From Salinibacterium sp. TMP30 (GTDB lineage Bacteria > Actinomycetota > Actinomycetes > Actinomycetales > Microbacteriaceae): a stretch of DNA of 64,000 bases. The stretch spans positions 806,001 to 870,000 of the forward strand of contig NZ_CP151642.1 in the NCBI RefSeq assembly GCF_038397785.1, in the 5' to 3' direction. This document shows positions 1 to 4,889 of the stretch, one piece after another; position 1 is the first letter of the stretch, and each line of letters begins with the position of its first letter. The notes beneath the pieces are model-generated. The model was not told the DNA's origin. It worked only from the letters and a program-made list of their open reading frames with translations, and ran no database searches. The position numbers were made by a program, and so were the translations under genes.

Positions 1-233
1 GTTTGCTCTAGCTCCATCCCTCGTCGAGCTTTGGCTAGCGCTGTGCTGCGGGGACTGGCTGTGCGGGGAATTTCTCCCGAAAAGGTGCCAAACAGATCGG
101 TGTTGAGCTGTTGGGCAGCGACGATGTTGGCGCCGAGCACATCCGCAAAGGCGTGGCGTGCCAGCACTTCCTTTCCATGCATGGTGGCAAATGTGATGGG
201 TTGGTTCTGATATCTGCCTTGCGGCGGCGTCAC
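1..233 (-). CDS. DUF6671 family protein, 3' part beyond window
   Basis: The reading frame is open from a GTG at 233 to the window edge, so at least 77 residues are present and the C-terminus is missing. The GTG overlaps the TGA of the upstream P-II-like gene (GTGA), which indicates translational coupling in the dab operon. The segment ATMHGKE followed by TDLFGTFSGEIPR and ALAKARRGMEL is what I recognise as the N-terminal signature of DUF6671 proteins, whose function is unknown. No signal peptide or membrane segment is seen, so it is probably cytosolic. Its place as the last visible gene of a bicarbonate-accumulation operon suggests a role in that process, but this is inference from position only. 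The family call is from memory of the motif, not from a search. Confidence 0.7.
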   Translation of the reverse strand, partial: MTPPQGRYQNQPITFATMHGKEVLARHAFADVLGANIVAAQQLNTDLFGTFSGEIPRTASPRSTALAKARRGMELEQ

Positions 234-547
234 TTGAAATACTCGGGTCGGCTGACGTAGGTTTCAGCAACGAACATGACGCCACTCGTCGAATCGAGCA
301 TTGCTCTGACTGCCTCAACCAATTGTTCGGCTTTGGCCTGGGGAAGCACAGTGATGATCATGGTCAAGGTGTCGTACTCGTTGAAGAGCAGATCTCCGGA
401 GCGTTGGCCATGATGCCCGATTCCTGAAACGCCCGATACGGAGGTGTAGCCGGTCGCTCCAGCGGACGCAATGAGTTCACGCAGATCGGGTGCTTGACGC
501 GCCGGAACGATGATTTCTATTCGAGTCATCTTGGTGAGGCCGTTCAT
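230..547 (-). CDS. P-II-like signalling protein of the DAB operon
   Basis: A 105-residue protein with a P-II-like ferredoxin fold pattern: a first strand TRIEIIVPARQ, a Gly-rich central stretch (GVSGIGHHGQR) where P-II proteins have the T-loop, and a second repeat LTMIITVLPQAKAEQLVEAV. The start at 547 is preferred because its ATG overlaps the dabA stop (ATGA) and a GAAGGA ribosome site lies about 9 bases upstream; a start at 586 would run 43 bases into dabA. P-II-like proteins are known next to bicarbonate transporters (SbtB, CPII) and next to some DabA genes, where they are thought to sense adenine nucleotides or bicarbonate. Regulation of the DabAB pump is therefore the likely job. The canonical uridylylation Tyr context of GlnB is not seen, so it is not a plain nitrogen regulator. 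Confidence 0.8.
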   Translation of the reverse strand: MNGLTKMTRIEIIVPARQAPDLRELIASAGATGYTSVSGVSGIGHHGQRSGDLLFNEYDTLTMIITVLPQAKAEQLVEAVRAMLDSTSGVMFVAETYVSRPEYFK

Positions 548-2982
548 GAGTGTGGTCCTTCCATTGTGGTTGTGTGTTTTTTCCATCCGACCGACGTGTG
601 CCGGTACCAGGGAGCGTCTGAGTCTTCACGCGCGGTCAGCGTGATCCAATCGTTGTCCAAAAGATCGCGCAGGACTTGGTTGCGGGAAACAATCCGACCG
701 ACTTTTGTGAGGGGAGCCTGCACGAGTACGGCAAGTCGCAGCGGTTCATGGAACGCGTGTTTACCGACACCGACAGACTGCCAGGGGAGGCCGCGGCGCA
801 GGTCACCTTCGTGGCCGGAAAGGACTCCGGTTACTCCGATCGCGTTGTGAATCGTCTTGGTTCCCGCACCCAGCGTTTCGGGGTTGAGGGTGGAGAAGTA
901 GTACTGGTGATTGATCCATTGAGCGACGACCATCGGTGCGGTCAGGATAGTTTCCAGCGCCAAGTCGCTCTCATCCAGCTCCGGCCGATAGGAGTGCAGG
1001 AAAACTCGACGTTTGAGGTCGACGCCGCGGGTCATTTCGCGTGGGCCGATAATCATGGCGGCGTTCCCGGCCAATCCGAGCTCTGGATAGACCTCGGACC
1101 AGTCGTGCGCTCGACGCCGGATGCTCGCGGGCTTTGATCGTGTGTTGGAACCAGGGAGATCTCGAGCCCGCTCCTGAAGCAGTTGGTCGGCTGCACACCG
1201 TTGGAGCAATCGGAAGTCGCGCACCCGCTCACTGTGGCTCTCGGGAATGAGGGAACTATCGAGAACCGTGATTGCATCGGTCACCGTGTTGTGTTCGGCT
1301 GCAACGAAGACGCAGTCTTCCGGAATCGCGATTCCGCGGCGCTGAAGAAGGGTTCGAACTTCCTGATCATTGAATAGTGCAACGGCGGCACGCGCATTGG
1401 CCGCTCCCGGATTGCCCCCACAGGCACCGCAGTCGAGCGCAGACTGATACAGGTTGTTCATTGACTCGGAGGTGTGTCCGGTGATCACGATGAGCGGTGC
1501 AAAGTAGGTGAGCCCCATCATCCGGATCGCAGTTTCGGCAAGCGACACACGTTCCTCGAGCGTGAACGCATCTGCGACGGTGACTGTGCTCTCGAGCGCG
1601 GGGATCTGTTGGGAGGCGAATTCGTTGAGTCGCCCGGTGAGAGCGGGCGCGAACGTGCGCAGGATGCTCCCTGCTCCGTAGAACCATCCCGCGATCTCGG
1701 CAAGCGCGAATGGGGTTGTAGTGTTCGTGTCGGCAGCGTGCAGTGCCCTGCGCAGCGCGTTCCGCCGTCGCCGTGACCGCATATTCTTCGCAGCGTTTTC
1801 GGGAGTGAATGGCCGCTCTGTGACGTGATGGCGTGGCTCAAGCAGCGCGGGCAATGAGTTGATCGCACCCCGAGCTTGGTACTGGGAGAAGCGAATGGGG
1901 ATGCCAAAAAACCCCGCGAACCCGACTGTTTCAACGGAAGTGTCTGACTCAAGGTGACGGCGCATTCCTTCAGACCTCGGATCGATGCACATCACTACCT
2001 GAACCTGAGCGCTATCGTGAGCTGGTGCACTCGGAACGAGCGACGTGATGAGTGAGTTGCGGTAGTTGAGTTCGTAGGCCTTCTGCCACGTGAACGGATG
2101 CTCACGAGTGCCGTGTGCCGCCAGTACACGAGCAACCATTGCGACATCGTGGCTGTGTGCGGTATCGCCGGTGACGCTATCCGCCACTCGACGCGCGCGA
2201 GCCCACACGCTCTCGTCACGTTGCGAGGGAGTGTTGTTCTCTTTAACAGAACGCGGCGGAAGGTCAAGGATCATACGGAGGCTCAGGCGCACGGCTAGGT
2301 AGCTGGTCAAATCGATGTCGCCATGTTTAGCTGCACGCCATTTGATGTGGGCAACCCAGCCCGGCAAGGATGTGAGCTCCCGTCGCAGCGTTGGCGTAGT
2401 CTCGTCACTTGCCACGGCGAAGTGTTTGAGGGCGTGCGCGAGAGCGCTATCTGGTTGGTCGAGAAGATCGGTGATTTTTCTGCGTGCCCGCTGCGGCAAA
2501 GATCGGTCGAACCGTGCCAGCCGCTTCCAGGACCGATAGAAACCTTCCTCACGGTGTGGCATCGGCCAGAGCGGATCCCGAATGAGGTAGGCGGCGACCC
2601 ACGCTGACACGCGGGCATCGACCGGGTCGATTGTCAACTCAGTCTCCGGTGAGCTCTCGCTCGGGGGAGAGAGTTGCATGTCGAGTGCGGCGAGGCCCAC
2701 TACCGGCACGTTGTATGCGCCGATTGTGGTGCGTCCTGCGAGTTCGGGGACCCTCTCCAAGAGTGCCAGCTCCACATCTTCCGGACGAATGCGTCCTCTC
2801 TCGAGGTCAGCTAAATACGCGTTGATAGTGCGGGTCGTGGTGGAGCCGGCCAGTTCGGCGGAGTCGAAGGGGATAGCTTCTTGGCCGGCCAGAGGGTTGA
2901 TGGCGATGAAGGACTCGAGCGGCCACGATGGCACGACCTCATGGGCCGCTGACGCTACGTTGGCGCGGAGAATTAAGCTCAT
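544..2982 (-). CDS. dabA: DabA, catalytic subunit of inorganic carbon accumulation system (DUF2309)
   Basis: 812 residues, the usual size of the DabA/UPF0753 family. DabA is a beta-carbonic-anhydrase-like zinc protein that, with the membrane partner DabB, is thought to hydrate CO2 vectorially to bicarbonate using the ion gradient. The expected zinc and active-site residues can be seen: Cys332 and Asp334 in MCIDPRSEG, His503 in ITGHTSES and Cys518 in LDCGACGG. The 15-residue His-to-Cys spacing matches that reported for Halothiobacillus DabA. The N-terminal PSWPLESFIAINPL is also typical. The ATG at 2982 shares one base with the dabB stop (TGATG), and the 3' end overlaps the P-II-like start (ATGA). 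No signal peptide is seen, so it is a peripheral protein on the cytoplasmic face. The family is best known in autotrophs; no carbon fixation genes are in this window. Confidence 0.92.
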   Translation of the reverse strand: MSLILRANVASAAHEVVPSWPLESFIAINPLAGQEAIPFDSAELAGSTTTRTINAYLADLERGRIRPEDVELALLERVPELAGRTTIGAYNVPVVGLAALDMQLSPPSESSPETELTIDPVDARVSAWVAAYLIRDPLWPMPHREEGFYRSWKRLARFDRSLPQRARRKITDLLDQPDSALAHALKHFAVASDETTPTLRRELTSLPGWVAHIKWRAAKHGDIDLTSYLAVRLSLRMILDLPPRSVKENNTPSQRDESVWARARRVADSVTGDTAHSHDVAMVARVLAAHGTREHPFTWQKAYELNYRNSLITSLVPSAPAHDSAQVQVVMCIDPRSEGMRRHLESDTSVETVGFAGFFGIPIRFSQYQARGAINSLPALLEPRHHVTERPFTPENAAKNMRSRRRRNALRRALHAADTNTTTPFALAEIAGWFYGAGSILRTFAPALTGRLNEFASQQIPALESTVTVADAFTLEERVSLAETAIRMMGLTYFAPLIVITGHTSESMNNLYQSALDCGACGGNPGAANARAAVALFNDQEVRTLLQRRGIAIPEDCVFVAAEHNTVTDAITVLDSSLIPESHSERVRDFRLLQRCAADQLLQERARDLPGSNTRSKPASIRRRAHDWSEVYPELGLAGNAAMIIGPREMTRGVDLKRRVFLHSYRPELDESDLALETILTAPMVVAQWINHQYYFSTLNPETLGAGTKTIHNAIGVTGVLSGHEGDLRRGLPWQSVGVGKHAFHEPLRLAVLVQAPLTKVGRIVSRNQVLRDLLDNDWITLTAREDSDAPWYRHTSVGWKKHTTTMEGPHS

Positions 2983-4496
2983 CAGATTAGTCCTTTCGAC
3001 AGGGAGCTTCGCGAGATTGTTGCCGAGAGTGACCGGGTATATACCAACTCGCGAAGGGTGGAGTTTCTCGTTCGAGCTCGCGCCAGAACTTCAACGCCGA
3101 TGAGTCCGACCGCGGGAATAATGAGGAGCCAGGAAGGTGCTCCGATGCCGCTGTTAGCGACGTCGAGCACTAGGCCGAACAGGTGAATGGCAACCGTGTA
3201 TCCAAAAGATACCGCGGAGGTGACTACGATTCCGAGGGTGAGGCTCTGGAGCGAGAAGTGGGTCAACAATCCGGCTCCGAGCGTGACACCAAGAGTCAGC
3301 GCGACGAACACGAAGAGACCAAGTTCAGCATCCGTGATGTTGGGAGCGAACATCGTTTTAGCTGCGATGAGGGATGCGACGGGCGCCAGGACCGCCACAG
3401 CCGTTGAGGCCACAACGACTACGCGACTGGTGGGCACCGTGACGGGAAGGTTGCGGTCAATGGTGTGTTCCCGCATGCCGGTGCCAGCGCTGAGGAAGAG
3501 TGTCGATTTGAAGAGCGAGTGAGCGACGAGGTGGAAGATTGCCGCGGCGTATAGGCCCAGACCGCAGGTCATTATCATGAAACCCATCTGGGCCATGGTG
3601 GAGAACACAAGCCGGCCTTTGACATCGGGTCGCACGAGCCGTACCGCGGAGGCGTAGACCACGGTGGCTGATCCGGCAAGGAAGATCACGATCATCACGG
3701 ATTGATGCAGGCTCACTGTTTCGGAGAACCGCAATAGCAGGATTGCGCCGGCGTTGACGACCCCAGCGTGCATCAACGCAGACACCGGTGTGGGTGCGGC
3801 AAGGGTAAAAGGTAGCCAGCCGTGAAAAGGGATCTGACTTGAGCGGGCGAGAGCGCTCACGACGAGCAACGCTGCCACAAGGAACTGCAGGGGCAGTGGC
3901 ATCTCGATAACCTGCGAGGCTACTTCGTTGAGTGGCACGTCTCCTCCTGCGGCGACGAGCACGATTGCCAGGCCGATCAGCAGTCCCGAATCGGCAATCC
4001 CGAATCGCAGTGCTGTGCGGCGAATTCCGTCTTGTGCCTGGTTCAATTGGCGGTAGGTCGCGAGAAGTGCCACAAGGGCGGCTCCTGCTCCAATCCATGC
4101 GACGACGAAAGCTGTCACAGTCGCTGCGCACACCAGGAAAATAGTGAACCCAGTGACGATGTTGGTGCACAGGATGAACCAGGTTTGCCGCGCGTCTCCG
4201 CGAAGGTAACGGAGCGCGAAGACTTGGATGAGCATGCTGAGACCGAGCACCAGCAGCGCCATGATGAGGGCTAGGGGATCCCATTGCAGCGCGCCAAATT
4301 CGATCGTACGGGTGTCCGCGCTCGTTGTGCTGCTGAAGATACTGAGCAAAGCGACAGCGAGCAGCCCCACCCCAGTGATCGCGCTTGCCGACACTCCCAC
4401 GGTGTGTGGGGTCAGCTTGGCCCGTGACAGAACTCCCGCAACAACTGCTGCTAACCACGGTGACACCATGGCGGCGCCCAGAATTACAACGTCCAC
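2982..4496 (-). CDS. dabB: DabB, proton-conducting NuoL-like membrane subunit
   Basis: 504 residues and strongly hydrophobic, with about 13-14 predicted membrane segments. It belongs to the NADH-dehydrogenase subunit 5/MrpA antiporter-like family. The conserved core PFHGWLPFTLAAPTPVSALMH (with the Lys/His relay region of proton-pumping subunits) and HLVAHSLFKSTLFLSAG are present. Because it lies directly before dabA, it is the DabB partner that couples ion flow to CO2 hydration rather than a complex I subunit; no other nuo gene is near. The ATG at 4496 has GAGGG 7 bases upstream. It is the first gene of the operon dabB-dabA-P-II-like-DUF6671. A TATAAC box lies 51 bases upstream of the start, inside a dyad that may bind the divergent regulator. 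Confidence 0.9.
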   Translation of the reverse strand: MDVVILGAAMVSPWLAAVVAGVLSRAKLTPHTVGVSASAITGVGLLAVALLSIFSSTTSADTRTIEFGALQWDPLALIMALLVLGLSMLIQVFALRYLRGDARQTWFILCTNIVTGFTIFLVCAATVTAFVVAWIGAGAALVALLATYRQLNQAQDGIRRTALRFGIADSGLLIGLAIVLVAAGGDVPLNEVASQVIEMPLPLQFLVAALLVVSALARSSQIPFHGWLPFTLAAPTPVSALMHAGVVNAGAILLLRFSETVSLHQSVMIVIFLAGSATVVYASAVRLVRPDVKGRLVFSTMAQMGFMIMTCGLGLYAAAIFHLVAHSLFKSTLFLSAGTGMREHTIDRNLPVTVPTSRVVVVASTAVAVLAPVASLIAAKTMFAPNITDAELGLFVFVALTLGVTLGAGLLTHFSLQSLTLGIVVTSAVSFGYTVAIHLFGLVLDVANSGIGAPSWLLIIPAVGLIGVEVLARARTRNSTLRELVYTRSLSATISRSSLSKGLI

Positions 4497-4534
4497 TCCA
4501 CACCCTCACTGTTGGCGAAAACTAATACGCGAAA

Positions 4535-4549
4535 AACGTAGCACACGTT
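4535..4549. promoter_or_regulatory. dyad AACGT-N5-ACGTT between dabB and its divergent regulator
   Basis: A perfect inverted repeat AACGT/ACGTT with a 5-base spacer (AGCAC) lies in the 108-base divergent gap. On the minus strand TATAAC, a plausible -10 box for dabB, covers 4552-4547 and overlaps the right half-site. The arrangement fits an operator at which the adjacent winged-helix protein could control dab expression. The assignment is inferred from position and symmetry only. Confidence 0.4.
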
Positions 4550-4592
4550 ATAAGTCCTGAATTGCAAGTGGTGCTAATTTTTTCGTCTGAGG

Positions 4593-4598
4593 TATGGT
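4593..4598 (+). promoter_or_regulatory. -10 box TATGGT, leaderless start of the winged-helix gene
   Basis: TATGGT is followed by 6 bases and then the ATG at 4605, the spacing expected if transcription begins at the start codon. No ribosome site precedes the ATG. Confidence 0.5.
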
Positions 4599-4604
4599 TG
4601 GGGC

Positions 4605-4889
4605 ATGGCAAAATGGACGTTCCTCACCAACCACGCGCATGTCCTCATGTGTGTGTCGGAGAACCCCAATGCACTGCTTCGGGATGTCGCCACTCAGGTG
4701 GGAATCACTGAGCGCGCAGCGCAGCGAATCGTCACGGAGCTTGAAGAAGCTGGGTACCTTGAGCGGCAACGTGAGGGTCGCCGAAACTCGTACCGACTCA
4801 ATACGTCGATGCCCTTGAGGCATCCGCTCGACACGGACTATCGCGTGGGGGAGCTGCTGGCGATGTTTGCTAAAGGTAAGGCTGAATAG
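4605..4889 (+). CDS. winged helix-turn-helix (MarR-like) regulator
   Basis: 94 residues, almost all one winged-helix domain. Helices at about 10-17 and 24-33 lead to the recognition helix ITERAAQRIVTELEEAGYLERQREGRRNSYRLN, whose tail is the typical MarR/ArsR wing (short hairpin with Arg-Arg-Asn). There is no ligand domain, so it probably binds DNA as a small dimer. It is transcribed divergently from dabB with a 108-base gap that contains a perfect dyad, which makes it the best candidate for the regulator of the DAB operon. The start is supported by a TATGGT box 6 bases upstream (leaderless). The effector is unknown. Confidence 0.75.
   Translation: MAKWTFLTNHAHVLMCVSENPNALLRDVATQVGITERAAQRIVTELEEAGYLERQREGRRNSYRLNTSMPLRHPLDTDYRVGELLAMFAKGKAE

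Follow-up and report, generated by a model that had tools for sequence, protein, structure and literature searches.

The window analysed here is a stretch of 64,000 nucleotides from Salinibacterium sp. TMP30 (contig NZ_CP151642.1), corresponding to bases 806001-870000 of a host genome that consists of a single contig of 2,685,429 bases. At its left edge lies a putative inorganic-carbon (Ci) supply operon, in which the genes of a DAB-type pump, dabB and dabA, are followed by genes for a PII-like protein and for a protein of the family DUF6671 (Table 1). The four genes are joined by overlaps of 1, 4 and 4 bases as read from the sequence, in agreement with the preliminary description of the locus, which had given 1-4 bases, and this has the look of one translationally coupled operon. 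The same description had recognised a DAB operon that includes a PII-like gene and has a regulator of its own, and the family matches bear this out: DabA covers the PF10070 profile in full (724.9 bits, profile 1-747 of 747), DabB matches Proton_antipo_M (115.6 bits), the PII-like protein matches P-II (73.8 bits) and the DUF6671 protein matches PF20376 (119.3 bits against a cut-off of 23.8), while a winged-helix gene diverges from the operon. The NuoL-like DabB adjoins DabA, as is the case in DAB systems. Most of the DUF6671 gene lies beyond the coordinates of the window, and the host genome holds a single match each for DabA and for DUF6671.

Table 1. Features of the DAB-PII-DUF6671 locus (window positions unless marked as genome positions)
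Feature	Position	Strand	Remarks
dabB, NuoL-like membrane subunit	2982-4496	minus	504 aa; GTG start codon; 1-base overlap of its stop with the dabA start
dabA	544-2982	minus	812 aa; C332/D334/R336/H503/C518 kept
PII-like gene	230-547	minus	105 aa from ATG overlapping dabA stop; 4-base overlap with dabA
DUF6671 gene, 5' part	1-233	minus	4-base overlap with PII-like gene
DUF6671 gene, whole	genome 805388-806233 (L002:9388-10233)	minus	281 aa; leaves window at left edge
MarR-like winged-helix regulator gene	4605-4889	plus	94 aa; divergent from operon
Divergent promoter region, dabB / regulator	4497-4604		dyad AACGT-N5-ACGTT at 4534-4548 (significance not computed)

The four zinc/active-site residues credited to DabA beforehand were confirmed by alignment with DabA2 (9rd0), in which Cys332, Asp334, His503 and Cys518 correspond to Cys351, Asp353, His524 and Cys539; Arg336 aligns with Arg355 and belongs on the list beside them. 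According to a figure legend in PMC13144422, replacement of these DabA2 residues altered growth yield significantly. Since the active-site residues are all kept, the DAB pump of the host appears intact on paper. By analogy with DAB2, DabB would couple an ion gradient to DabA, which would hydrate CO2 to bicarbonate in one direction, and the bicarbonate would serve ordinary carboxylases. The full-length DabA, the complete active site and the position of DabB in front of it are shared with the known DAB/DAC systems (DabAB of Halothiobacillus, MpsAB of Staphylococcus and the COG3002-COG1009 operons), from which the locus differs in its fourth overlapping gene, that of DUF6671, and in a regulator that is MarR-like where theirs is of the LysR type.

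The preliminary description had seen no carbon fixation genes; a search of the whole host genome for RuBisCO large subunit, the only marker examined, found none, which extends that statement for this marker and sets the host apart from organisms with a RuBisCO-based CO2-concentrating mechanism. In this the locus resembles MpsAB, which is known from non-autotrophs (PMC8552792). MpsAB has been proposed to be a Na+/HCO3- symporter (PMC13144422), a possible point of difference. Among 51 DUF6671 genomes, 13 gave any RuBisCO match and eight a match above 400 bits, leaving 43 of 51 without a strong one. The host encodes one beta-carbonic anhydrase, as do 39 of the 51 DUF6671 genomes searched for this enzyme, and the pump is therefore not simply a stand-in for it. 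The locus is best explained as an operon for the regulated supply of inorganic carbon in an actinobacterium that is presumably heterotrophic.

The PII-like protein had only two PDB matches at E values up to 0.01, 5d4n and 5d4l (61 bits, residues 6-104 of 105). Their PDB records name only P-II/GlnB; we take both to be CPII, the carboxysome-associated PII-like protein, from whose setting the present one differs in the lack of RuBisCO in the host. The protein of the window may sense adenine nucleotides and/or bicarbonate and so tune the pump. The operon had been put forward as a candidate for a little-described system, which does not hold for its PII partner: the order dabB-dabA-PII was described in 2017, with the PII gene behind nuoL-ybcC as in DAB clade B (PMC5700660), and a PII gene also accompanies DAB genes in the Halothiobacillus carboxysome region (PMC4633670). 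The PII partner of the DAB operon is therefore already known and not new, and DAB pumps in heterotrophs are likewise already published. Plasmids of Nocardia and Mycolicibacterium also carry a PII-like gene after dabA, as in the window.

To place DUF6671, we collected loci by a scan of GTDB contigs and kept the best 80 of at least 555 relatives, many of them from related metagenome-assembled genomes (MAGs) and two (L052 and L060) from one genome. They come from Actinomycetota, Bacillota, Pseudomonadota and others. The flanks of 34 loci contain dabA and/or dabB (dabB alone was seen in L048 and L071, and a dabA piece alone in L085 and L097). Whole-genome searches, which for SbtA covered the other 46 loci, found DabA elsewhere in the genome for 19 of these and SbtA above the cut-off for 17, with both in none and neither in ten, so that DAB genes or SbtA are present in the locus or genome of 70 of the 80. 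The density of dabA, dabB, SbtA and homologues of the window's regulator falls with distance from DUF6671; that of ABC ATPases and SDRs does not.

Twelve plasmids, two of them from one strain, served as an independent set, whose annotation was read and whose sequences were searched again with the pump proteins. All 12 carry a pump (DAB in eight and SbtA in four), at times at some distance from DUF6671: DAB lies about 11.6 kb away on the Methylocystis rosea plasmid, and on that of Pseudomonas hygromyciniae SbtA, absent from the distributed gene table, and then a PII-like gene lie 6.2 kb away. This last plasmid, pSDM007, has TerC, DUF6671, pyrC, an unlisted ilvD, the unlisted SbtA and the PII-like gene on one strand (L181:7944-16296). 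On a Mycolicibacterium plasmid of 23.7 kb, a carbonic anhydrase gene (L174:4920-5507) follows dabB, dabA and the PII-like gene and stands beside DUF6671; by its gene content this plasmid carries a compact mobile carbon-supply island. Four plasmids (L175, L184, L176, L181) also hold a gene annotated cysD: on two, from Mesorhizobium, it separates dabA from DUF6671, and on the other two its distance from DUF6671 is at most about 9 kb.

The association is not tied to one lineage of the family. On a tree of 99 DUF6671 proteins, built by a quick method with long branches flagged, the DAB/SbtA label changes at least ten times, and six of these changes are forced by well-supported branches. In this tree L007 was left out as coming from the same genome as L082, the identical seed locus stands three times (L090, L131, L149), and L149 and L135 were unlabelled (L135 has SbtA elsewhere in its genome). 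Clustering at 60% identity gave 39 DUF6671 clusters, 37 of them with a DAB or SbtA genome. The link has been re-formed with two unrelated transporters, and function therefore explains it better than descent.

Two samples of genomes were drawn without regard to pumps, one of 296 genomes from the phylum of the host (Actinomycetota) and one of 289 genomes from the class of an Afipia strain, whose seed genome (G346) was left out of the counts except where stated; the Fisher tests applied to them ignore shared ancestry. The phylum sample contains DUF6671 in seven genomes, DabA in 20 and SbtA above the cut-off in 15, with DabA and SbtA never together. DabA or SbtA is present in all seven DUF6671 genomes (DabA in five, SbtA in two) versus 28 of the 289 others (Fisher 1.8e-7, or 1.5e-6 without the host), and in four of the five DabA cases, G080 being the exception, DUF6671 and DabA share a contig and are at most about 3.5 kb apart. 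In the second-class sample, seed included, DUF6671 was found in 12, DabA in 37 and SbtA in 56 of 289 genomes; without the seed, one of the two pumps occurs in eight of the 11 genomes with DUF6671 versus 73 of 277 others (Fisher 0.0023; at least one pump counted). G491, whose DUF6671 match is broken by stops, is counted among the 11, and G122, G209 and G327, with SbtA below the cut-off, are not counted as SbtA genomes. Among the second-class DUF6671 matches reaching position 215 or beyond of 217, a cut chosen after seeing the data, six of six have a pump. The association is thus strong in one direction: where DUF6671 is present, a Ci pump is nearly always present.

AlphaFold2 models of the window's DUF6671 protein reached pLDDT values of 86.5 (from seven sequences) and 93.0 (from 54 sequences), and the best PDB matches of both in Foldseek were proteins of the YjjX (DUF84), RdgB, Maf and HAM1 type (E 2.3e-4 and 8.5e-5). 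An ITPase-like fold had been guessed from motifs before this search; in our own reading, the motif order T-x-H-x-K / K-A / E-G / [ST]-R of DUF6671 resembles that of RdgB, YjjX, Maf and HAM1. The N-terminal motifs are T-x-H-x-K and T-D-x-x-G-T-F, with H19, K21, T45, D46, G49, T50 and F51 invariant in 54 aligned proteins; they lie in the N-terminal quarter, which the Pfam model PF20376, covering residues 68-281 of the 281-residue window protein, leaves out. DUF6671 differs from these families in an H where YjjX has N, in the lack of a significant sequence link and in an extra C-terminal CxxC-rich part, with four CxxC pairs that all of these 54 proteins share. This end reads as a double zinc ribbon and would presumably bind zinc. 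On the strength of the models, an ITPase/Maf-like nucleotide-processing domain with a cysteine-rich end is the likeliest architecture, and nucleotide processing is our best guess at its activity; the protein would bind or hydrolyse a nucleotide that signals low CO2 or is needed under it.

The four CxxC pairs and a CNP end are present in 73 of the 80 loci, and at least two of the seven without the full set are cut by contig ends. In the three second-class DUF6671 genomes with neither pump, the CxxC region is degenerate or missing (G392, G456), or the four pairs are kept and the CNP ending is gone (G429); SbtA is present in G523, where two CxxC were seen, and DabA in G643, where CNP is lacking. 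The CxxC cysteines may mark a Ci-linked DUF6671 subfamily. Within the second-class sample, the CxxC region was degenerate or missing in L134, L135 and L137, two of whose three genomes have neither DabA nor SbtA.

Several observations weigh against a general tie of DUF6671 to Ci pumps and against its proposed fold. Ten of the 80 loci have neither pump, nine of them from MAGs and the tenth from a Methylocystis isolate (L114), and the same is true of three of the 11 second-class DUF6671 genomes. Both pumps occur in 11 second-class genomes, one of them with the broken DUF6671 (G491), and the pumps are therefore not mutually exclusive everywhere. The joint presence of the PII-like and DUF6671 genes at dab loci, whose absence from most related loci the preliminary description had named as refuting, is not the rule among the loci sampled: at the DabA loci of the phylum sample (flanks up to 1.5 kb) a PII-like gene was found in six of 20 genomes, and DUF6671 is present in only five of the 20 DabA genomes there and in six of 36 in the second class. 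Most DabA and most SbtA genomes of both samples lack DUF6671, which is therefore needed for neither pump and is optional. The window protein itself forms a long branch, with at most 38-39% identity to any relative fetched. As to the fold, the Foldseek TM-scores among the rows shown do not exceed 0.54, which marks a divergent match; Pfam and PDB profile searches with DUF6671 gave no ITPase family, and hhalign gave no match with one YjjX and a weak one with three (P 0.045), in the expected register. ITPase homology by sequence was accordingly dropped, and the fold claim is kept as a structural one alone.

A dedicated DAB subunit was considered and rejected, as DUF6671 also occurs with SbtA and most of the sampled genomes with DabA do not have it. 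Of the suggestion that DUF6671 is an undescribed DAB component, the partnership and the absence of a paper by name have stood; strictly speaking it does not belong to DAB, since SbtA too has it as a companion. We favour, with moderate confidence, the reading that the operon is a regulated Ci supply and that DUF6671 has an accessory part in inorganic-carbon supply at large, beyond DAB alone; the protein probably assists carbon supply whatever the pump.

The predicted ITPase-like fold, together with the presence of DUF6671 on twelve plasmids, would also suit an ordinary nucleotide pyrophosphatase of the house-cleaning kind, with shared plasmids or islands accounting for its link to pumps. We consider this very unlikely: the link persists despite the repeated label changes on the tree, it holds in samples drawn regardless of pumps, and it is seen where pump and DUF6671 lie apart in the genome (G080, G463, G643). 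The CxxC pairs in turn bring to mind a metal-supply or metal-stress protein on islands that answer zinc shortage or a toxic metal, the more so as zinc is the metal of DabA, PyrC and carbonic anhydrase, and TerC is near in six of 12 plasmid loci. TerC showed no distance decay in the 80 loci, however, and SbtA, isocitrate dehydrogenase (IDH), PurE and carboxyl transferases are, to our knowledge, not zinc enzymes; such a role seems most improbable.

The accessory role in Ci supply has also to be set against the other neighbours of DUF6671. Among the 80 loci (L035-L114), IDH was a neighbour in 16, IlvD in nine, PurE in eight, PyrC in seven and a carboxyl transferase in four. Their densities per 100 kb at 0-1.5 kb versus 5-8 kb are 5.5/0.4 for IDH, 3.2/0 for PyrC, 2.7/0.4 for IlvD, 2.7/0.4 for PurE and 1.8/0 for carboxyl transferase, and those of the controls are 1.4/2.1 for ABC and 0/0.4 for SDR. 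In the plasmid set (L173-L184) the distance to DUF6671 is 1.5 kb or less for IlvD in five of 12 loci and for PyrC in two. The IDH near DUF6671 is of the NADP type. The common theme of these enzymes may be use or release of CO2 or bicarbonate, a step that comes after bicarbonate use, or a lysine carbamate; IlvD carries a CO2-derived lysine carbamate, and Sua5 uses bicarbonate. The idea that the PyrC and IlvD neighbours are CO2-independent spares was rejected: Lys103 is kept in six of six aligned PyrC copies (nine found), and Cys122-Asp123-Lys124 in eight of eight aligned IlvD copies (14 found), which in E. coli numbering are presumably the positions of the carbamylated residues.

These neighbours raise the alternative that DUF6671 is part of a wider low-CO2 response and acts not on pumps but on CO2-linked enzymes (IDH, PurE, acyl-CoA carboxylase beta, PyrC, IlvD). 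Their concentration within 1.5 kb, which the controls do not share, the recurrence of IlvD and PyrC on plasmids and the carbamylated lysine of dihydroorotase (PMC8659124) all speak for it. The counts are small, however, and close relatives contribute a part of them: most or all of the PyrC and carboxyl transferase cases are in Methylocystis-like loci, and two of the five plasmid IlvD genes belong to one Arthrobacter strain. The density of Sua5 is flat in the 80 loci; no beta-carbonic anhydrase lies within them; and no such enzyme gene was read among the open reading frames beside the window's operon. We hold this alternative to be unlikely, if worth keeping in view. A bolder proposal, in our view quite unlikely, would make DUF6671 a new low-CO2 effector, nucleotide-using and cysteine-rich, common to DAB, SbtA and IDH, PurE, PyrC, IlvD and biotin-dependent carboxylases, which might for example sense bicarbonate via a nucleotide or keep lysine carbamates in place.

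Of the 80 loci, 39 contain a homologue of the window's regulator, and in 30 one stands no more than 1.5 kb from DUF6671; per 100 kb, the density of these homologues is 14.6 close by and drops to 0.7 farther away. A homologue stands directly before DUF6671 in the DAB loci L083 and L107 and in the SbtA loci L062, L063, L075, L080 and L086, so that DUF6671 and the regulator type of the window are found beside SbtA as well; the host itself differs from SbtA-SbtB systems in that its genome contains no SbtA. As the homologues recur by DUF6671 in DAB and SbtA loci, regulator, DUF6671 and pump form a recurring module, in which the winged-helix protein would control transcription of the operon. The regions upstream of regulator genes, 43 at first and 46 in a second round, were scanned for motifs; a group of loci from actinobacteria showed a TTCACGA/TCGTGAA element, and four loci an ACGAT-N6-ATCGT dyad (shuffle maximum three). 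Both lie upstream of the winged-helix gene in L040, L044, L045 and L056 and form a possible operator there. TTCACGA/TCGTGAA as a common operator was rejected, as the window is without this element and has AACGT-N5-ACGTT instead.

The surroundings of the operon appear unrelated to it, with a WhiB-like gene, a sensor kinase and secA on one flank and a peroxiredoxin and tRNA-Lys on the other (protein names read from translations).

A full-text literature search, with supplements and the original DAB paper outside its scope, returned no paper under the name DUF6671, and searches on DAB/PII and on DabA/SbtA brought no such partner to light. The DUF6671 partner and its pairing with both DAB and SbtA thus appear undescribed. 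Both pumps feature in the discussion of bicarbonate systems that might serve the engineering of carbon fixation (PMC8438413). The link to pumps provides the first functional handle on the unknown Pfam family PF20376, and a family common to DAB and SbtA, found mostly without a strong RuBisCO match, may be an overlooked general part of bicarbonate supply.

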